Assembly (NCBI RefSeq): GCF_018141405.1
Contig: NZ_CP058648.1
Coordinates: forward strand, 1,255,001-1,319,000
Origin: Serpentinicella alkaliphila
Lineage (GTDB): Bacteria; Bacillota; Clostridia; Peptostreptococcales; Natronincolaceae
DNA length: 64,000 nt
Direction: 5' to 3'
The notes under the pieces are model-generated. The model was given only the letters and a program-made list of their open reading frames with translations, was not told where the DNA came from and searched no databases. The number at the start of each line of letters is the position of its first letter. The first letter of the stretch is position 1. The translations under genes were made by a program, and so were the position numbers. Shown here piece by piece: positions 51,337-64,000 of the stretch.

Positions 51337-51414
51337 CAAAACAAAAATGCATGTAAATGGCATTAATTATGTATCAAAAATAATGTCAAAAACGTACAAT
51401 GATTTGGTCTGCGC

Positions 51415-51989
51415 ACCATTTACATTGAGATGTATGCATGGTAGACTTTGTGACGTCAGGCATTGATTTTTCAAGTGGCCCTTAAATGCTCTAACCATGT
51501 ATACAGAGGCTCAATGTCAATGGCAAATCATCTTGTATTGCTAAAACACTACATATTTTTAGAATGCCATAAAACAACAATTTTTAAGTGCCATGTACAT
51601 GGTTCACTATAGACATATATTGAGAGTATGGTATTTCTAGCAACAAATATCCTTATATGCTCCCTCATATCGAGCTAGGAGGGATTTTACTATGGATAGC
51701 GTCATAGCATATTTATAAGAAGAAAGTTGAATCCAGAAATGATACAAAACCATGGGACGATTTATTCAGCTACTAGCAATGTAGTAAAACAAAACCAGGT
51801 ATTTTGTAAATTACAATGCAATTTTGTATAAAAATTATAATCTCAAAATGTTCAAAAAATATAAATGAAAATATTAGCCATTGACATTGAGCCTCTGCAT
51901 ATGTAGTTCTAAAGCCTTACACTCAAGCCTTACAACGAAGGCAATGCCTATATTTGAGGCTACTACATATGTCTCTCAATGTAAATGGT
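51415..51989. mobile_element. 575-bp non-coding element with nested inverted repeats at both ends
   Basis: The outer 16-bp perfect inverted repeat is 51415-51430 with 51974-51989. The inner 21-bp perfect inverted repeat is 51504-51524 with 51877-51897. Each end is itself an imperfect roughly 110-base hairpin: 51415-51442 can pair with 51494-51523, and 51878-51908 with 51961-51988. The motif CCATT(G/T)ACATTGAG thus occurs four times. No transposase is inside. It may be a MITE-like or otherwise non-autonomous element. Confidence 0.55.
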
Positions 51990-52118
51990 TCACTTCGTCT
52001 AATATTTTAGATTGTAATATTTGTACATTTTTTTAAAAAGCATTAAAAATACAATAATTGTACATTTTTAAATTATAATTTACATATTTTACTTATGCAT
52101 AAAGTAAAGGAGGTTATA

Positions 52119-52924: not shown

Positions 52925-54940
52925 GTGAAGCAAAAAATATATCAATTAGACAATATCAATGAATTAAAAGAAGAACTCAAAAAAGATGCAGCCGATTTAC
53001 AATCAGATGAGTTTGAGACTGTATTTATACAAATTTTCAGTTCAGTAAATGAAGGTGAATGGTTTAAAATTATTTCAAATGAGTTATTGAAAAAAATTCC
53101 AACAGCGGTTATTGTAGGTGCTTCCTCGGTTGGGGAGATTTGTAATGGGAAAACGATAAGGGGAAAGACGGTCGTTTCAATCACATTATTCGAATCGTCC
53201 CATGTTAAAGTGATTTCCCACAAATGTATCTCTGGAGAAGAAAGGGAGCTAGGCCACCTAATTGGGCAGCAGATTAATTCAATAGAGGATGATATCGCGG
53301 GGATCATGCTACTTGCTACACCATTAAGCATAGATACAAGCGAGTTGGTTAAGGGTCTAGCTAAGCGTAATGAATGCTTGAATTTTTTTGGTGGTGGTGC
53401 AGGAAATTATGAAGCTGCTAGAAACTCATTAATTATCCATGACTTAGAAGTTATTAAACAGGGGGCTCTTGCAGTAATATTTTATGGTCCTAAACTACAG
53501 ATTAAGGCAATGACCTACTTAGGATGGAAAGCTGTAAGCAAGGAAATGAGAATTACAGAATCTGAAGGAATGATTGTAAAGACCATAGATGGGAAAGAAG
53601 CTTTTATGGTTTATGATAAATATTTGAATATACCAAGGAACGAACAATTCTTCCTGAACGCTATTGGATTTACATTTCTGTTTAACCGTGGAGGAGAGAT
53701 GGTCTCAAGGGTACCCATAGCGGTTGATGAACATGGCGCCCTTACATTTATAGCGGATATGTACGAAGGTGAAACATTCAGCTTAGGATATGGAGATCCT
53801 GCAACCATCCTAAAAAATGCAGAAGAGGTTCATGGAAAAATGAAAAATTTCAATCCTGATAGCATATATTTATATTCTTGTTCATCAAGACATACCCTTA
53901 TGGGCGGAGCTGTAGAGATTGAGACTATACCATTTCAAGAGATAGCACCAACATCTGGTTTCTATACATATGGCGAATACTTTGGAAGCGAGAAAAACTT
54001 AAATGTACTGAATTCAACCATGGTGGCAGTAGGGCTAAGAGAAAATGCACAGGATGACACTGACATTAACGAGGGAAAGTATGACTCAGCGAACAGTATA
54101 ATTATACCGACGTTTTCACAATTAGATCTATTAAATCATAAGGATTATACAGGTGCCAGCAAATTAGCTCATTTAATTGAAAAAGCAAAAGAAGAAATTG
54201 TACAAAATAGTTCTCCAAAATTATTTGTTCAGTGTTTAGGCGGCTTTACATGCTCTTCAGATGATGCTCAAAATAAATATATACGTTGGAGAACATCAAA
54301 GGTTGAAGAGCTTTTTGGGTTCTTAATTCATCATGAAGGAAACCTTGTTTCAAGAGAACAAATTATAGAAGCGTTGTGGCCTGATTGGGAATTTAACAAG
54401 GCTGCAAAAATCTTTCATACTACAAGCTATTACATGCGTAAAGAATTAGAAATACATGGACAGAAAGACATCTTGATTAAATCTCAAGGGAAGTATGCAT
54501 TAAATATGCAGCATTTTAATTGTGATAAGCTGGAATTCATAAACTTAATTAAGAAGATGGATCTGGAAAAAACAAGCATAGAAACATTAGAGAAGGCCAG
54601 TTGCCTTTATAAAGGACCTTATTTTGGATTATCATGCTATGAGTGGGCTTCGGCTCAACAAACGTGGCTTGAGAATAAATATTTAAAACTTAGTTTAACC
54701 TTGGCTAAACAGTATGGAGAGATTGGAGATATCAATAAATCGGCTGAGATACTAAATAGTATAATTCTTGAAAATCCCCTTTCGGATGAAGCCTATAAGG
54801 CGTTGATAGTATTACTTATTAATAGTGGGTATGTGGCAGAGGCTGTTCGGTGCTACAAAAAATATGAAGTGATTTTGAGTCAAGAGATTGGCATCAATCC
54901 CTCAGTAGAAATAAAAAGCCTAATGAGACCTTTTCTTTAA
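52925..54940 (+). CDS. FIST-domain sensor fused to winged-helix/BTAD (SARP-like) transcription regulator
   Basis: A 671-residue soluble protein. FIST N (about residues 30-215) has AVIVGASSVGEI and a GGGAGNYEAARNS loop; FIST C (about 225-375) has NEQFFLNAIGFTFLFNR, ADMYEGETFSLGYGDP and TSGFYTYGEYFG. FIST domains are predicted small-ligand sensors. Residues about 452-530 look like an OmpR-type winged helix (NLVSREQIIEALWPDWEFNK, YYMRKELE), and 535-671 like a BTAD helical domain ending in EAVRCYKKYEVILSQEIGIN. No kinase or receiver is present, so ligand sensing and DNA binding appear to be in one chain. It starts at GTG 52925 behind GGGAG. A paralogous FIST gene lies 7 kb downstream. Confidence 0.85.
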   Translation: MKQKIYQLDNINELKEELKKDAADLQSDEFETVFIQIFSSVNEGEWFKIISNELLKKIPTAVIVGASSVGEICNGKTIRGKTVVSITLFESSHVKVISHKCISGEERELGHLIGQQINSIEDDIAGIMLLATPLSIDTSELVKGLAKRNECLNFFGGGAGNYEAARNSLIIHDLEVIKQGALAVIFYGPKLQIKAMTYLGWKAVSKEMRITESEGMIVKTIDGKEAFMVYDKYLNIPRNEQFFLNAIGFTFLFNRGGEMVSRVPIAVDEHGALTFIADMYEGETFSLGYGDPATILKNAEEVHGKMKNFNPDSIYLYSCSSRHTLMGGAVEIETIPFQEIAPTSGFYTYGEYFGSEKNLNVLNSTMVAVGLRENAQDDTDINEGKYDSANSIIIPTFSQLDLLNHKDYTGASKLAHLIEKAKEEIVQNSSPKLFVQCLGGFTCSSDDAQNKYIRWRTSKVEELFGFLIHHEGNLVSREQIIEALWPDWEFNKAAKIFHTTSYYMRKELEIHGQKDILIKSQGKYALNMQHFNCDKLEFINLIKKMDLEKTSIETLEKASCLYKGPYFGLSCYEWASAQQTWLENKYLKLSLTLAKQYGEIGDINKSAEILNSIILENPLSDEAYKALIVLLINSGYVAEAVRCYKKYEVILSQEIGINPSVEIKSLMRPFL

Positions 54941-54947
54941 TATGAAT

Positions 54948-54996
54948 CTACAAAAAGAAGCATTTTTCAAAAAATGAAAAATGCTTCTTTTTGTAG
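54948..54996 (+). terminator. 22-bp perfect hairpin after the FIST-SARP gene
   Basis: Arms 54948-54969 and 54975-54996 pair perfectly with a 5-base A loop. The A-run/T-run design could terminate transcription in either direction. Confidence 0.8.
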
Positions 54997-55098
54997 TAAT
55001 AAGTCGGTTTTTGTTGAGGTTTTGTTGAGTTCAGTTTGATAGAATTCATAAGGTATATAAATTTAATCTCTAAAAAATCAGGCAAGGGGGTATTTAGC

Positions 55099-58000
55099 GT
55101 GAAAATCAAAAGAAAGATTTCACTATTATTAGTCTTTGTATTGACTGTCAGCTTGTTTTCAGGACTATCTGTACAGACCGTACAAGCCAGCGAGACAGTC
55201 ATTCTTGACGAGCACTTAACATGGAGTGATAATGAAGATGGAACAGCAACAATAACAGGCTACACTGGAGGACCAATAGCTGACCCTACCGTTGCTGAAG
55301 TCGTTTACGACGCTTCAGCGGGAAATTTATCGGTGGTTGGGATTGATAATAACGCATTCACTAATAAAAGCTTAACTGGTGTGTTAACAATTCCGAATGG
55401 TGTGACAAGCATTGGGGACGCCGTATTTTCCGGAAATCAACTTACAGAAGTAAATATTCCTACTAGTGTTAACAGCATTGGTTCTAGCGCGTTTAAAGGT
55501 AACGTCCTTACAAGCGTTACTATACCTGACAGTGTTACAAGTATTGGATATTCAGCTTTTGAACAGAACAAACTGCAAAATATAAGTATTAGCAATAACA
55601 TTTCAATAATTGCAATGTCAGCCTTTGCTAATAATGAACTAAGAAGGGTGACAATTCCTAAAGGTGTTATTACCCTTGGAATGTTTGCATTTTCAAATAA
55701 TAGCATTGAAAATGTTGAAATACCAGACAGCGTTACAACAATTAATATGTCAGCCTTCACTAATAATGAACTTAGCAGTGTATTGATTCCTGATAGTGTG
55801 AAGACCATAGAAGACTTCGCATTTTTTGGTAATAATATTACGAAGATTACCATCGGAAGCGATGTATCCTTGGGTTTTGAATCGATTCCCCATAATTTTA
55901 AAGTATTTTATGATGATGTAAGTGGTGTTAATAAACAAGCAGGTAATTATGTATATGATACAGATGCTGAAACCTGGAGCTTAGCAGATGCAGATGTAAC
56001 AACAACTTTTAACGGTACATTGAGAGATGAATCAAGGTTTTTAAGACCTGCTCCTAATGAGACTTATGAAGAAAATTTTGATGCAATCTTAAGTGCATCT
56101 GATGTTGTAGAAGGAGATGAAGAATACAATTATTTTGTAATAAAAATGACACCGGAAGTTTCAGGTACATATGCAATAGAAGTCACGGATTCAGACTTAC
56201 TCGAAAGTGATGGAACAGAATCAAATGACACATTTCTTCTTCTATATGAAGGAGACTTCGATAAGGATCAACCGTTGATAAATCTGTTAGCGGCTAATGA
56301 TGATATAGCCATGGAAGGAGACAACTTGCATTCTTGGTTGCCGGAACAAGCTTTGGAAGAGGGTACTGACTATTATATTGTCGTAACATCTTATATATCT
56401 GGTACTACCGGAGAAGTAACCTTCAGGGTAGTAGGTCCTGGAAGTGTTACAGTAGAACAAATAGATCTAGGCTCGGGTGGCGAATTCGCCGGTGGCTCCG
56501 GTACGGAAGAAGATCCATACCAGGTGGCAACAGCGGAGCAATTAGGGAATGTAAGAAATCACAAGGATAAGCATTTTATTCAGACAGCAGAAATCGATTT
56601 GCAAAATGATATTAATGGTTTCGATGCTGAAGGCTGGGAGCCTATCGGCACATCAGAGCAGCCATTCACAGGTACATATGATGGGTCTAGCTATGAAATT
56701 ATTTCAATGGATATTAACCGGCCAAATGATGATTATCAGGGATTATTTGGAAAAGTTAGCGGTGCAACAATTAAAAATATAAGACTATTCAATTTCGATA
56801 TAACCGGAAAAACTAATGTGGGCGGTTTGGCAGGCCAAGTGGAATATACTTCTACTATAGCAGACGCATATGCAATTGGTAATATTACTGCTGAAGGCAA
56901 TGCCGGAGTCTTGGTTGGATGGAACTCAGGGGACATTGTAAGATGTTATACCTCAGGAAGCATAACATCTTCTGATACATCTTTGAATTATACAGGTGGC
57001 TTAGTCGGCTTTAATGGAATGATGGTCGGTGGGTTAATTTCAGACTCTTATTCTTCTGCCGATGTAACAGGAACAAGAGTAGGTGGCTTAGTGGGTTGGA
57101 ATGCCTATGGTACAGTAGAAAACTCTTATGCTACCGGCCTTGTGACCCAAACTCGTCAAGAACCTGGAGATTATAAGGGTGGACTTGTGGGCAGGAACCA
57201 ATGGACTGTAACAAACTCCTTTTACAGTTCAGAAACTACTGGCGCGGACGACACAGGCAAAGGAACACCAAAAACTAGTTTTGAAATGAAACAGCAGGAT
57301 ACCTTTGCTGCATGGAATTTTGTTGATGTTTGGGAAATAACAATAGGGGCAACCTATCCTACTTTAAAGGGTGTAACAAGAGCAGCAGATTTAGATATGG
57401 CACCTCCGTTTTTAGTGAGTGCAAGCGTTGAAGATGCCAACCCAAATCAAGTTATTTTGACCTTTGATGAAAATATTGAGGTCGTAGACGAGGCTTCCGC
57501 CAAAGCGGATATGACAGTAAAAGTTGATGGAGTGGATCGGGAAATCAGCATAGTAACCGGGTATGGAAGCAAGACTTTAACGGTTGCCTTAAGTCAAAGG
57601 GTGTCAAATGGTCAAACAGTTATATTTTCATTTGCGAATTCGGCGTTTAATATCTATGATGGTATATATCAAAGACTACAAAAGATTGTAGATTTTCCAG
57701 TAGATAATAATGTCAGTGAGGCAGATGAGAGCGGAGATTTTGTCTTTGATCCTGCTACTGGAACTATTACTGACTATATTGGCTCAGCCACAGATATCAC
57801 TATACCCGATACCATTGACGGAGTATCGGTAGCGGAAATCGGTACTAGAGCATTTGCATATAATAATTTAACATCAGTCACTGTACCAGATAGTGTAACC
57901 ACAATAGAAAGTTACGCATTTGAAGGTAACCAGATAACAACGGTCATGATTCCAAACAGTGTGACATATATAGGATTAAATGCTTTTTGGGGTAATAAGT

Positions 58001-59829
58001 TGAATAGCATTGTGATTCCGGATAGTGTTGAAGAAACCGGAAATCGGGTTTTCGAAAACAATCAGTTGAAATCTGTTACTATTGGCAACAGTTTAAATGA
58101 GTTGGCTCTAGGTATGTTTAAAGATAACCAACTAACGACGGTGGTTATCCCTGATAACGTTACGTCAATCCGTAATGAAGTTTTTTCAGGCAATCCATTG
58201 ACCAGTATCACTATCGGAAGCTATGTTTCAATAACTAATAATAACTCAATGGGTATGTATGGCGCTCAATTTAAAAATGATTATTGGGAATATGGGTATG
58301 CTGCAGGTACCTATAATTATGACAGCAATCTTAATAAATGGGTGCTGCAATTGACAGAATTCGCAGGTGGCTCCGGTACGGAAGAAGATCCATACCAGGT
58401 GGCAACTGCAAATCATCTGAACAATGTAAGAAATCACTTAGACAAGCATTTTATCCAAATTGCAGATATCGATCTTGATGGGTATAATGAGAGCAACTGG
58501 CTACCAATTGGTACGAATATTACCCCGTATACAGGTTCATATGACGGAAAAAATCATAGTATCATTGATATGCAAATTATTCGACATACACAAGATAATG
58601 TCGGCTTGTTTGGGTATGTTGCATCAGGAACCATTAAGAATGTGAATCTTGATAATGTAGACATCAGCGGAAAATCAAATGTTGGTGGGCTTATTGGACG
58701 TATGTATATCAACAACCCATCCCTTGAAGGTGAAATTTCCAATGTAAGTGTGACGGGAGTTATCACTGGACGATACTCCGTTGGAGGGCTTGCTGGATAT
58801 ATATGGCACAATGAAAATGGGAAACTAGAAATTTCTGATTGTTCTTCAAATGTCGATATAGAGGGTACAAACAATGGACTAGGAGGTCTTGTGGGGAGCA
58901 TTGGTAGAGCCATAGTAGTAAACAGTTATGCAACAGGAGACGTAATCGGTGATTCAGACAATAGCGATCAGGTGGGCGGCTTGATAGGTTATGCACAAAG
59001 TGTTACTATTTTAAATACCTATGCCACGGGAAATGTTGCTGGAAATGGAGCAAATGGATTTGGCGGTGTTGGTGGATTAGTTGGTGTGCTGCACGAATAC
59101 GATGAAACTGGCATACTAAACAGCTATGCTACAGGAAATGTTTCGGGAAGCATGGCTCAAGAAGAACTTCATTATGGTGGCATAGGCGGCTTGGTTGGTG
59201 TGATGAATGGGTATGACCAAATTGCCATATTAAATAGTTATGCAACTGGAGATGTCACGGGAAATAAAGCAGGGGGCTTTGTGGGTGCTATTATGCAGGG
59301 TGGACTCATATTCCACAGTTATTCAACGGGTAAAGTAAGCGGTGGAAATAATATCGGCGGATTGGTGGGATATGATGAGCACATGGATCCAGAGACAACG
59401 ATAAATATAGTCGCTTCATTTTGGAACACAGAAACATCAGGTCTTTCCTTCAGCGTAGGGGGAGAAGGTAAAACCGCTGATGAAATGATAGATATCAAAA
59501 CATATACCGACGCTGGATGGACAATCGAAGCTGTTAGTGACGACGGTTATGAGGGCTATCCCTATCCGGGATTGAAACAGGTGCAGTATGGGGAGAGCCC
59601 CTGGAGGATTTGGGCAGATATTGATGAAGAGGAACCTGGAGGTGAAGAGCTAACCATACCTGGAGCTCCGACTAATGTAACAGCATCAGCAGGGAACGAA
59701 CAAGCTACGTTGAGCTTTGTAGCTCCTGAAAATGATGGAGGTAGTCCGATAATAGAATATATTATAAATCAAGCCCGGGCAACATCTCAGCCAAAGGCAG
59801 TGGTAGCCCGATCGTCGTTACAGGATTGA
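55099..59829 (+). CDS. Giant secreted surface protein: LRR_5 and GLUG repeats, N-terminal part of a frameshifted gene
   Basis: Start GTG 55099 behind AAGGGGG (55084-55090); upstream in-frame starts lack an SD. Signal peptide: KIKRKISLLLVFVLTVSLFS, cleavage likely after VQA near residue 34. BspA-type leucine-rich repeats (VTIPDSVTSIGYSAFEQNKL) span about residues 78-254, a pre-peptidase-like domain 294-447, GLUG-type repeats 461-760, an SwmB-like domain 768-867, a second LRR set 881-1048, second GLUG set 1088-1488, then an FN3 domain that breaks off. The frame ends at TGA 59827-59829, but the FN3 domain continues in another frame, joining the SLH-bearing ORF downstream. Probably cell-wall-attached adhesin-like protein. 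Confidence 0.85.
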   Translation: MKIKRKISLLLVFVLTVSLFSGLSVQTVQASETVILDEHLTWSDNEDGTATITGYTGGPIADPTVAEVVYDASAGNLSVVGIDNNAFTNKSLTGVLTIPNGVTSIGDAVFSGNQLTEVNIPTSVNSIGSSAFKGNVLTSVTIPDSVTSIGYSAFEQNKLQNISISNNISIIAMSAFANNELRRVTIPKGVITLGMFAFSNNSIENVEIPDSVTTINMSAFTNNELSSVLIPDSVKTIEDFAFFGNNITKITIGSDVSLGFESIPHNFKVFYDDVSGVNKQAGNYVYDTDAETWSLADADVTTTFNGTLRDESRFLRPAPNETYEENFDAILSASDVVEGDEEYNYFVIKMTPEVSGTYAIEVTDSDLLESDGTESNDTFLLLYEGDFDKDQPLINLLAANDDIAMEGDNLHSWLPEQALEEGTDYYIVVTSYISGTTGEVTFRVVGPGSVTVEQIDLGSGGEFAGGSGTEEDPYQVATAEQLGNVRNHKDKHFIQTAEIDLQNDINGFDAEGWEPIGTSEQPFTGTYDGSSYEIISMDINRPNDDYQGLFGKVSGATIKNIRLFNFDITGKTNVGGLAGQVEYTSTIADAYAIGNITAEGNAGVLVGWNSGDIVRCYTSGSITSSDTSLNYTGGLVGFNGMMVGGLISDSYSSADVTGTRVGGLVGWNAYGTVENSYATGLVTQTRQEPGDYKGGLVGRNQWTVTNSFYSSETTGADDTGKGTPKTSFEMKQQDTFAAWNFVDVWEITIGATYPTLKGVTRAADLDMAPPFLVSASVEDANPNQVILTFDENIEVVDEASAKADMTVKVDGVDREISIVTGYGSKTLTVALSQRVSNGQTVIFSFANSAFNIYDGIYQRLQKIVDFPVDNNVSEADESGDFVFDPATGTITDYIGSATDITIPDTIDGVSVAEIGTRAFAYNNLTSVTVPDSVTTIESYAFEGNQITTVMIPNSVTYIGLNAFWGNKLNSIVIPDSVEETGNRVFENNQLKSVTIGNSLNELALGMFKDNQLTTVVIPDNVTSIRNEVFSGNPLTSITIGSYVSITNNNSMGMYGAQFKNDYWEYGYAAGTYNYDSNLNKWVLQLTEFAGGSGTEEDPYQVATANHLNNVRNHLDKHFIQIADIDLDGYNESNWLPIGTNITPYTGSYDGKNHSIIDMQIIRHTQDNVGLFGYVASGTIKNVNLDNVDISGKSNVGGLIGRMYINNPSLEGEISNVSVTGVITGRYSVGGLAGYIWHNENGKLEISDCSSNVDIEGTNNGLGGLVGSIGRAIVVNSYATGDVIGDSDNSDQVGGLIGYAQSVTILNTYATGNVAGNGANGFGGVGGLVGVLHEYDETGILNSYATGNVSGSMAQEELHYGGIGGLVGVMNGYDQIAILNSYATGDVTGNKAGGFVGAIMQGGLIFHSYSTGKVSGGNNIGGLVGYDEHMDPETTINIVASFWNTETSGLSFSVGGEGKTADEMIDIKTYTDAGWTIEAVSDDGYEGYPYPGLKQVQYGESPWRIWADIDEEEPGGEELTIPGAPTNVTASAGNEQATLSFVAPENDGGSPIIEYIINQARATSQPKAVVARSSLQD

Positions 59830-61232
59830 CCAATGGTACTACTTATACCTTTACAGTACAGGCGAGAAATGAAGAAGGAACAGGACCTAGTTCTATACCT
59901 TCAAACGCGGTAACACCTTATAAGCCTTCAAAAGGAGGCAGTGGTGGAGGGAGCACGACAACAACACCTGCATCGACAGATACTTCAGTCAAAGTCCTAG
60001 TAAACGGCAAAGTTGAGAATGCAGGGACGGTAACAACTACGACGAAAGGTAACCAAACAGTGACAACAGTTAAGCTTGATCAGCAGAAGCTGGAGCAGAA
60101 ACTGGCAAGCGAAGGATATAAAGCGGTAGTGACTATCCCTGTCAGTACAAAATCCGATATAGTAATCGGTGAACTGAATGGACAGATGGTTAAAAACATG
60201 GAAAGCAAGCAGGCAGTATTGGAAATAAAGACAGGAGCAGCTATTTATACCTTGCCTGCACAGCAGATAAACATAGATGCCATATCTGAGCAAATCGGAA
60301 GAAATGTGGCATTACATGATATAAAGATCCAGGTAGAGATAGCAAAGTCAACGGAAGAAACCGTTAAAGTAGTAGAAAATTCTCGGAAAAAAGGAGGATT
60401 TACCATCGTAGCCGCTCCAATCGATTTTACCATTAAAGGTATTTATGATGGAAAAGCGGTAGAAATAAGTAAATTCAACGCCTATGTAGAAAGATTGATG
60501 GCAATACCTGAAGGTATTGACCCATCCAAAGTTACTACGGGTATTGTAGTAGAAGCTGATGGAACGGTACGGCATGTACCAACAGAGGTAATCGTAATAG
60601 ACGGAAAATACTATGCAAAAATCAACAGTTTGACCAACAGTACCTATTCAGTTGTATGGCATCCATTAGAATTCAAAGATGCAGAAAATCACTGGGCAAA
60701 AGCTGCCATAAACGACATGGGTTCCAGAATGGTTGTCAGCGGAGTTGACAATGACATGTACGAACCTGATAGAGACATCACCCGTGCAGAATTTGCAGCT
60801 ATCATGGTAAGAGCATTAGGACTGAAGCCAGGAGAGGGAATGAATCCATTTGAGGATGTAAAAGTTTCTGACTGGTATAGTGATTACATCGAGACAGCAG
60901 TTGCGTACAAGATTATTTCAGGCTATGGCAATGGCAATTTTGGACCAATGGATAAGATTACCAGGGAACAGGCTATGACAATGATCTCCAGGGCAATGAA
61001 CATCACAGAGCTAAAGGCAGAGCTTGTTAACGGCGAAATAGAAAAACTCCTTGAGGGCTTTGGTGATGGGGTACAGTCAGCGGATTATGCTAAAAGAGCT
61101 ATTGCAGCTTGTGTCAAATCAGGAATAGTTTCCGGTAGAAGCGATAATATGATAGCGCCAAAAGATAATATTACTAGAGCTAAGGTGGCAGCAATCATGC
61201 AAAGACTGTTAAAAAAATCCAAACTGATTTAA
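59826..61232 (+). CDS. C-terminal part of the same surface protein, with three SLH domains
   Basis: This frame really begins before its nominal TTG: upstream codons read SSPGNISAKGSGSPIVVTGL, the middle of the FN3 domain cut off in the preceding ORF. It continues LTNGTTYTFTVQARNEEGTG, a Gly/Ser/Thr linker (about 59930-59980), a beta-rich domain, and three SLH modules from about 60660 (KDAENHWAKAAINDMG, EDVKVSDWYSDYIETAVAYK, SADYAKRAIAACVKSG) that anchor to secondary wall polymers. Joined by one frameshift near 59764-59769 the protein would be about 2,044 residues. No SD precedes it as a separate gene. Confidence 0.85.
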   Translation: MTNGTTYTFTVQARNEEGTGPSSIPSNAVTPYKPSKGGSGGGSTTTTPASTDTSVKVLVNGKVENAGTVTTTTKGNQTVTTVKLDQQKLEQKLASEGYKAVVTIPVSTKSDIVIGELNGQMVKNMESKQAVLEIKTGAAIYTLPAQQINIDAISEQIGRNVALHDIKIQVEIAKSTEETVKVVENSRKKGGFTIVAAPIDFTIKGIYDGKAVEISKFNAYVERLMAIPEGIDPSKVTTGIVVEADGTVRHVPTEVIVIDGKYYAKINSLTNSTYSVVWHPLEFKDAENHWAKAAINDMGSRMVVSGVDNDMYEPDRDITRAEFAAIMVRALGLKPGEGMNPFEDVKVSDWYSDYIETAVAYKIISGYGNGNFGPMDKITREQAMTMISRAMNITELKAELVNGEIEKLLEGFGDGVQSADYAKRAIAACVKSGIVSGRSDNMIAPKDNITRAKVAAIMQRLLKKSKLI

Positions 61233-61529: not shown

Positions 61530-63302
61530 ATGAAGCAAGAAATTATTAATGTTAATAATCTTGAAGATATAAAACATTTTCTGAGTCAAAAGAACATTTA
61601 TATGGAAGCACAGAAGTCAAAATCAACTCTTGTACAAGTATACTCATCTAACAATGATATAACATGGTATACATCAGTTGTAGAGTGTATTCTTGGTATA
61701 ATCCCGAATGTCTATATAGTTGGAGCGTCAACTGTAGGAGAAATTATTAAAGGAAAAACGAGTAGGGGAGAAACCGTCATTGCATTATCTTTTTTTGAAT
61801 TGACAGAAATAAAAGTCATTGCTGAAGATTGTTCAAAAAAAGACGAGGCTGATTGTGGTTTTGATCTAGGAAAACAGTTAGAAAGTATAAAGAATAGGAT
61901 TGCTGGAATTCAATTGCTTACGACTCCCCTTAGCATAAACACAGAAAAGCTGTTAAAAGGATTGCGAAGTTATACTAAAAAAACAAGTGTATTTGGTGGA
62001 GGGGCCGGTGACTATTATGCAACGTCTAACACTATCGTTATTGCAGGAAGAGACAAATTGAAAAAGGGAATAGTTGCTGTTGCGTATATAGGTGAAGACT
62101 TGCTGATTGAAACTTGCATGTACTTAGGATGAAAACCGTTTAGCCCTGAAATGATGATCACTGAATCTAAGGATATGCTTGTAAAAAAGGTGAATGGTAG
62201 GCCGGCCTTTGAAATTTACAACAAGTACCTCAATATTAAAAGCGATGATCAATTTTTCTTAAATGTACTAGGGTATTCTTTTCTTGTAAATAGACAAGGA
62301 GAGTATCAATCTAGAGTTCCTATCAGTGTGAATAATGAAGGTGCTATCCAGTTTATTGCAGATATTAGAGAAGGGGAGACTTTCCGTATTGGATATGCTG
62401 ACCCAGTAACTATGATTCACAATGCCCATGATGTACACCAAAAGATGAGATGTTTTCAACCTCAAGCAATCTGTTTGTTTTCTTGCGGATCACGACATAC
62501 GCTTCTTAATGATGACATTGATCTTGAGACAGAACCTTTTCAAAAGATAGCTCCAACTTTTGGATTTTATACATACGGAGAGTATAGTGGAACAATGATG
62601 AATTTAAAGTCACTGAATTCAACTTTGGTGATTGCTGGATTTAGAGAAGGTGGGAAGAGTCATAACGGATGTTATGACAAAAAGAGTAATACCATAGAGA
62701 AAAATGAGGAGGACGATTCTCTTATATTATATAGAGACTCTCGTGCAGTAGCTAGATTAATCCACTTTATTGAAGTCATCACGGAGGAATATGAAGAATT
62801 AAACCGTCAATTAAGGTTAATATCAATCACCGATAACTTAACTGGCTTATTCAATAGAGGAAAGTTGGATAAAGTTATTCAAAAAGAAATTGCGAGAGCA
62901 TTAGATAGAGATATATGTTTTTCTATTGTAATAGCTGATATTGACAATTTTAAAAGCATTAATGATGTTTACGGTCATTTAGCTGGTGATGCAGTGCTAG
63001 TTGAAATAGGAAGACTTTTTTTATCTGTTTTTGAACGTGAGAGTGATGTTATTGGAAGATGGGGTGGAGAAGAATATTTAGTTGTTCTTCCCGAAACAAG
63101 TATCCAAAAAGCATATCGTAAGACAGAAGAGTTACGGAATAAGATTGAAAAGCACATTTTTAATGGAAACTTACGAGTGACGTGTAGCTTTGGAATTTCA
63201 ACATATAAACGTGGTGATACAGTCAATGACTTAATATGGAGGGCTGACAAGGCACTATATGATGCTAAAGGTAGTGGAAAGAATAAAGTCATACAGGAGT
63301 AA
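61530..63302 (+). pseudogene. FIST-domain diguanylate cyclase (GGDEF), interrupted by in-frame TGA at codon 201
   Basis: The same frame is open from ATG 61530 to 63302 except for TGA at 62130-62132. The FIST N part (IVGASTVGEIIKGK, FGGGAGDYYATSNT) and the FIST C part (DQFFLNVLGYSFLVNRQGEY, TFGFYTYGEYSG) are paralogous to the gene at 52925. The paralogue has Trp (TGG) at codon 201, exactly where this gene has TGA (YLG*KPFSPEM against YLGWKAVSKEM). The C-terminal GGDEF domain is complete: DNLTGLFNRGKLD, DIDNFKSINDVYGH and GGEEY at about residues 512-516, so it should make cyclic di-GMP if translated. A restart at ATG 62151 would yield FIST C plus GGDEF. SD GGAGGTGG precedes 61530. Confidence 0.85.
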
Positions 63303-63408: not shown

Positions 63409-64000
63409 TTATCCGAATATTAGGTCTTTAATCTTTGCTATATCGCTGGTTTTGCCTAATACTCTATTAATAAAATGACAGAGATTATAGGCTAAGACCT
63501 TTGTTTTGATTCTTGTGTTCAATCTCCATAGGAATTTTGCCAATACTTTTTCGATATTGAGTTGCTCTGTTAGCTGCGAAGCAGTGGTTTCAATTCTCCT
63601 TCTGAGTTTGAAGATTATCTGCCTGAGTTCTTTAGGATACTGGTTCTTGCTATTTTTCTTTTGTAAAGGAAGCAGATCAATATTCTTTTCAACCTTAAGT
63701 TCTGGAGATAGATTACTACTTGTATAGCCCTTATCTCCAAGGACGGTAATAGAATCGTAGGATTCAAGGAGTTCCCATACAGGCCTTCTGTCATCAATAT
63801 CTGCTGGTGTAAGGACGAAATCAGTAACATAACCACCCAGGTTAACAAGCATGTGTAGCTTATATCCAAGGTACGTTTCCTTCTTTGAAGGACAATTACC
63901 ATAGGCTGCGCCATAACCCCTAAAGGTTTTATGAAAACGTGCTCTACCGAACTTACAGACAGGTATTTGAATACTATCGATAATCCTGTAAGAATTATCA
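63409..64000 (-). CDS. DDE transposase of an insertion sequence (IS982-like), 5' end beyond the window
   Basis: The minus-strand frame is open from the window edge to TAA at 63409-63411, about 197 codons. Visible motifs: KFGRARFHKTFRGYG, GYKLHMLVNLGGYVTDFVLT, DDRRPVWELLESYDSITVLG with DKGYTS (second catalytic Asp region), then FKLRRRIETTASQLTEQLNI with the catalytic Glu, and NTRIKTKVLAYNLCHFINRV. This C-terminal pattern is that of IS982/IS4-superfamily transposases. The ATG at 63852 is internal and not the true start. The terminal inverted repeat was not identified. Confidence 0.8.
   Translation of the reverse strand, partial: DNSYRIIDSIQIPVCKFGRARFHKTFRGYGAAYGNCPSKKETYLGYKLHMLVNLGGYVTDFVLTPADIDDRRPVWELLESYDSITVLGDKGYTSSNLSPELKVEKNIDLLPLQKKNSKNQYPKELRQIIFKLRRRIETTASQLTEQLNIEKVLAKFLWRLNTRIKTKVLAYNLCHFINRVLGKTSDIAKIKDLIFG

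Follow-up and report, generated by a model that had tools for sequence, protein, structure and literature searches.

A FIST-SARP fusion in Serpentinicella alkaliphila as a predicted one-component, FIST-gated activator of an adjacent surface-protein gene

FIST proteins have been reported as sensors of nitric oxide via heme, or of heme itself (PMC12570481, PMC8846402), and one of them, NosP, binds and controls a kinase (PMC12570481). Regulators of the SARP family combine an OmpR-type winged helix with a following BTAD domain; in Streptomyces they bind direct repeats spaced by 11 or 22 bp, the 3' repeat lying 8 bp from the -10 element, and AfsR covers the -35 as a side-by-side dimer (PMC10936776). 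Here we describe a gene in which these two families are joined on one chain, located at 52925-54940 of a 64,000-nucleotide stretch of the S. alkaliphila genome (NZ_CP058648.1, positions 1,255,001 to 1,319,000; the window).

Four groups of described proteins resemble this regulator in part. FIST-FIST_C-GGDEF proteins, including a neighbour at 61530-63302 and members from Acetobacterium and others, belong to the same FIST subfamily (35-45% identity, with homology running through the linker helix), but their output is a diguanylate cyclase rather than a winged helix and BTAD. Bacillota response regulators with a receiver-winged helix-BTAD order carry the same output module (identity up to 38%) and share the downstream surface-protein gene and the 11-bp-repeat promoter class; however, their input is a receiver, usually with a kinase-like gene upstream, whereas here the input is FIST and no kinase is adjacent. 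The Streptomyces SARPs, AfsR among them, and EmbR have the fold of residues 431-671, and an 11-bp direct-repeat site near the -10, as described for Streptomyces SARPs (PMC10936776), is predicted in the window; yet identity to AfsR and EmbR is about 20%, and their NOD-TPR and FHA domains follow the SARP module, while FIST precedes it here. NosP likewise has a FIST_N plus FIST_C sensor, although it is a separate protein that acts on a kinase. Assignment as an AfsR orthologue was rejected (32.2 bits against the NCBIfam NF053617 cut-off of 1430), as was assignment as a NosP equivalog (22.3 bits against the NF041558 cut-off of 450).

Architecture, rarity and origin of the regulator

The regulator is encoded on the forward strand by a single intact, unbroken open reading frame of 671 residues with a GTG start. 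Its sensor half comprises FIST_N (53024-53596, residues 34-224; PF08495) and FIST_C (53600-53983, residues 226-353; PF10442), which scored 101.7 and 80.8 bits, above the Pfam cut-offs of 23.2 and 28.5. A flexible linker and helix (residues 376-428) lead from there to the OmpR-type winged helix (54215-54514, residues 431-530), the helix itself occupying residues 411-428 (54155-54208) behind disorder at 382-412. Within the winged helix, the recognition helix falls at about residues 490-510 (NKAAKIFHTTSYYMRKELEIH), and the Trans_reg_C match at 457-519 reached 26.2 bits, equal to its cut-off. The all-helical BTAD activator domain completes the chain (54515-54937, residues 531-671), with a Pfam match of 55.6 bits at 550-668 (cut-off 22.1). 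An AlphaFold2 model computed from 67 aligned sequences gave a mean pLDDT of 89.7, with disorder confined to residues 382-412. In structure comparisons of this model, residues 1-375 matched the FIST domain of FBXO22 (Z 23.0, 256 aligned residues, 2.9 A), while residues 431-671 matched the SARP domain of AfsR (Z 21.5, 234 residues, 2.8 A) and EmbR (Z 19.6), and these latter matches resolve the borderline Trans_reg_C call.

The sequence-only reading of this gene had proposed a FIST sensor joined directly to an OmpR-type winged helix and BTAD as a one-component factor, and the profile matches and modelled folds bear this out: FIST, FIST_C and BTAD lie above their cut-offs with Trans_reg_C exactly at its own, the C-terminal half adopts a SARP fold in the model, and, given the AfsR, EmbR and Pfam matches, neither winged helix nor BTAD is missing from residues 450-671. 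Pfam found no Response_reg domain on the chain, so that it is not a two-component response regulator, and no kinase domain either; sensor and DNA-binding domain are instead combined on one polypeptide lacking a phosphotransfer domain, as in a one-component regulator. We regard the architecture as practically beyond doubt.

The same reading had doubted that such a pairing is a standard architecture, and this judgement holds within our searches. The genome of S. alkaliphila has three FIST genes, of which the regulator is one, and the regulator is the only BTAD protein found there. Searches with the full protein covered about 1,200 Bacillota genomes, drawn as overlapping samples from the family (20), order (394), class (391) and phylum (398), and returned many separate FIST and BTAD matches but no protein spanning both. 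Beyond Bacillota, coverage consisted of a pattern scan together with plasmid, phage and viral searches. The scan, built from a three-row alignment and run over 84,980 species, yielded 229 FIST relatives, and none of the best 80 (79 loci) had a BTAD in the same frame; no fusion was found in plasmids, phages or viral contigs. In the part of the literature covered we found no account of FIST-BTAD fusions, the sole paper containing both words being unrelated. The FIST-SARP pairing, known from one genome, is thus apparently a domain combination so far unreported, made from known families. A FIST-GGDEF protein with 46% identity to the window FIST is encoded on three contigs of the viral collection (L177, L178, L179).

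Both halves have identifiable relatives. In a tree of 76 FIST domains, the regulator's FIST is sister to that of the FIST-GGDEF gene at 61530-63302 (support 100/99), to which it is 45% identical across residues 2-427. The regulator can be aligned with its FIST-GGDEF relatives to about residue 425, and since this homology runs through the linker helix, the point of exchange lies directly after that helix. The neighbouring gene is interrupted on the forward strand, its FIST part (61530-62132) ending at an in-frame TGA at 62130 and its FIST_C and GGDEF parts occupying 62133-63302. FIST-GGDEF relatives in other genomes are intact, and an IS-type transposase (DDE_Tnp_1) at 63409-63999 adjoins the broken gene.

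In a tree of 70 winged helix-BTAD domains, the output half is nested among 59 receiver-SARP rows, although its placement within them is weak and the rows were assigned to that class by length and domain position. Pfam detected a receiver in each of the four rows sampled for it, while one protein classed as a receiver row (G555, from L077 and L224) is in fact PAS-winged helix-BTAD. That protein (L077:829-2181, and L224) represents a second one-component sensor swap in place of the receiver. The regulator is a clear exchange of output domains, with the source of its sensor half 6.6 kb downstream and the source class of its output half identifiable. We infer that a duplicate of the FIST from the FIST-GGDEF gene present in the genome became fused to the DNA-binding half of a receiver-SARP whose target was already a surface protein, so that a FIST input would have come to stand where a kinase-receiver input had been.

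Predicted operator and surface-protein target

The first gene downstream of the regulator encodes a large surface protein with LRR_5, GLUG, SWM, fn3 and SLH domains (Pfam). It is read in two frames: a secreted LRR_5/GLUG/SWM part with a signal peptide-like start (55099-59829, forward strand), and a continuation holding the fn3 remainder and three SLH domains (59826-61232, forward strand). The frameshift lies inside fn3, ahead of the SLH anchor, and the frames overlap at 59826-59829. Across 59700-59920 the break between the LRR/GLUG and SLH parts may be a frameshift, an error or a switch. Together with the TGA at 62130, it could reflect either a decaying locus or sequence errors. A direct reading of the leader reveals a Shine-Dalgarno-like AAGGGGG (55084-55090) preceding the GTG at 55099. 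A perfect 22-bp inverted repeat, a likely terminator (54948-54996, annotated on the forward strand), lies between the regulator and the surface-protein gene and was scored terminator-like on the minus strand.

Beginning 69 bp beyond the end of the regulator gene is a predicted SARP operator, TTTTGTTGAG-G-TTTTGTTGAG (55009-55029, forward strand), an exact 10-mer repeat at 11-bp pitch. A predicted -10 hexamer, TAGAAT (55040-55045), follows 10 nt past the 3' repeat core, so that by sequence the box conforms to SARP sites, defined as 11- or 22-bp direct repeats near a -10. A 10-mer repeat at this pitch arose with a frequency of 0.001 when the intergenic region was dinucleotide-shuffled, and the 21-mer is the sole site in the genome with up to 3 mismatches. 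Taken alone, such a repeat is only moderately unlikely by chance, with an expectation of about 0.13 per 64 kb. Across the genome, relaxed matches do not rise above background, numbering 35 compared with 41 for the reversed pattern. The DNA upstream of the regulator gene showed no direct repeat, and there is therefore no sign of autoregulation through a box of this type.

Comparison with related regulators places this arrangement in a wider context. We fetched 65 stretches around the closest relatives and analysed 64, excluding one of 10 bases. A kinase-like gene, so called by similarity to two kinases, lay directly upstream of 51 of 63 related regulators. The next gene downstream was a giant, signal-peptide-bearing non-kinase for 23 of the 63, compared with 17 of 455 other genes (Fisher P 3e-13; signal peptides assigned by a crude rule), and those giants sampled with Pfam were SLH, Big, cadherin, fn3 or LRR_5/GLUG surface proteins. 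The usual order in receiver-SARP loci is histidine kinase, regulator, giant surface-protein gene; at the window locus FIST takes the receiver's place and no kinase gene adjoins the regulator. In the part of the literature covered, nothing was found on SARP control of surface proteins in Bacillota. Relatives of the window LRR/SLH protein likewise occur downstream of receiver-SARPs (L187:9732-14842, L189, L194 and L200), and the L187 relative, like the window protein, has its LRR and SLH parts in separate frames. L187 also has a small receiver-like protein (PF00072; 9340-9738) between the repeat box and the surface-protein gene, and similar small open reading frames occupy the same position at L189:7432-7806 and L200:8984-9355.

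The promoter class emerged from a motif-free count of exact repeats of at least 9 bases, at spacings of 7 to 40, in the non-coding DNA lying up to 5.5 kb from each related regulator. Repeats spaced by 11 bp occurred at 16 of 64 loci, compared with 0-5 loci for each other spacing, and many lay 50-160 bp past their regulator, a range that includes the 69 bp of the window repeat. At 13 of 21 sites, a hexamer agreeing with TATAAT in 4 or more of its 6 positions stood exactly 10 nt after the 3' core (next best offset, 6); the core limits were judged visually once the blind spacing count was complete, and some loci supplied two or more of the sites. At L194 two SLH surface-protein genes (2605 and 9220) flank one kinase/receiver-SARP pair, and the promoters of both contain near-identical TTGTTTAT repeats followed after 10 nt by TATAAT, an arrangement that may represent a small two-gene regulon.

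Box sequences also appear to vary with the regulators. Those of L190 and L195 have a K-x-x-H-T-S recognition helix and TTGTTGAG boxes; the window regulator, with K-x-x-H-T-T, has the same TTGTTGAG core in its box, and an H-N-G helix goes with boxes of the TTTGGGAG type. A permutation test of helix against box was positive (r 0.39 for the helix versus 0.37 for BTAD), but as this correlation is no better than that of overall relatedness, we treat a helix-to-box code as a lead only.

Proposed mechanism and alternative explanations

On balance we consider it likely that the regulator is a one-component, FIST-signal-gated SARP activator of the adjacent surface-protein gene, the regulatory part of this proposal being computational. 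In the mechanism we envisage, binding or loss of a signal at FIST would allow two SARP modules to dimerise side by side on 55009-55029; the pair, seated on the tandem 11-bp repeat, would stand in for a -35 element and bring RNA polymerase to TAGAAT at 55040, switching on the LRR/GLUG/SLH gene that starts with the GTG at 55099. Action of the regulator on this box is probable, and gating of activation by FIST is equally so.

The FIST half would by this account sense a small ligand. C319, R322, E333 and E351 of FIST_C are invariant in an alignment of 34 FIST relatives. Heme or nitric oxide is a possible but doubtful candidate for the ligand. Further structural matches to the model of this half (residues 1-375, window 52925-54049) were chorismatase (Z 13.6) and, at Z about 11, cyanuric acid hydrolases, a likeness that may hint at an enzyme-like ancestral pocket. 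C319 and E351 (window 53879-53977), separated by 32 residues, are reminiscent of a pair in human FBXO22, the ligandable C326 and the adjacent E362, whose separation is 36; they are possible counterparts, and a profile comparison gave no sequence-level match to FBXO22.

FIST could alternatively serve for docking, with the signal coming from a partner protein, in the manner of NosP and its kinase (PMC12570481), and the best structural match, FBXO22, does bind proteins with its FIST fold. Neither a kinase nor an obvious partner gene adjoins the regulator, however, and the invariance of the four FIST_C residues across relatives with different outputs suggests a conserved site, so that we think docking unlikely. 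The breaks in the adjacent FIST-GGDEF and surface-protein genes raise the further prospect of a real fusion stranded in a decaying operon, its regulator vestigial or nearly so; this seems to us rather improbable, as nothing is broken in the regulator frame, in either fold, in the promoter repeat or in the -10, and the two interruptions may have arisen recently or through sequencing error.

The background level of relaxed box matches leaves room for a wider, degenerate regulon, in which case the regulator would control other genes and the repeat at 55009 would be a chance or unrelated element. Against this stand the genome's only exact site, 69 bp behind the regulator gene, and a box position and promoter geometry like those beside related regulators, which together make it an improbable reading. 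OmpR-type winged helices can act as repressors, and the predicted box does lie within the core promoter, but the regulator has a BTAD, and a promoter without a good -35 that carries the repeat in its place has the geometry of AfsR activation; repression of the surface-protein gene is accordingly very improbable. That the fusion is an assembly artefact, as its presence in one genome only might suggest, is barely credible, given that the genome is on a single contig, the frame is continuous and FIST-GGDEF homology runs through the linker helix into the joint.

Our preferred reading, FIST-gated activation of the neighbouring gene, goes beyond the sequence-only reading in its predicted regulated promoter, its sister FIST-GGDEF gene and its receiver-SARP/surface-protein module as the source of the output half. 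Its broader form would wire a FIST signal straight to transcription of a giant surface protein via a SARP, bypassing both c-di-GMP and the kinase-receiver phosphorelay, within an undescribed, Bacillota-wide class in which each SARP drives a neighbouring surface gene through an 11-bp box 10 bp from the -10 whose sequence follows the recognition helix; we lean slightly towards this form. The fusion makes FIST, a sensor class with poorly known ligands, readable by a simple promoter reporter. The wider value lies in a target class and a common, testable promoter rule for the many uncharacterised SARP-type response regulators beside Bacillota surface-protein genes.

Upstream of the regulator, a long AT-rich stretch without large frames (51340-52090) contains repeated pieces such as ATTGACATTGAG/CTCAATGTCAATGG and precedes a 121-residue membrane-like open reading frame at 52095.
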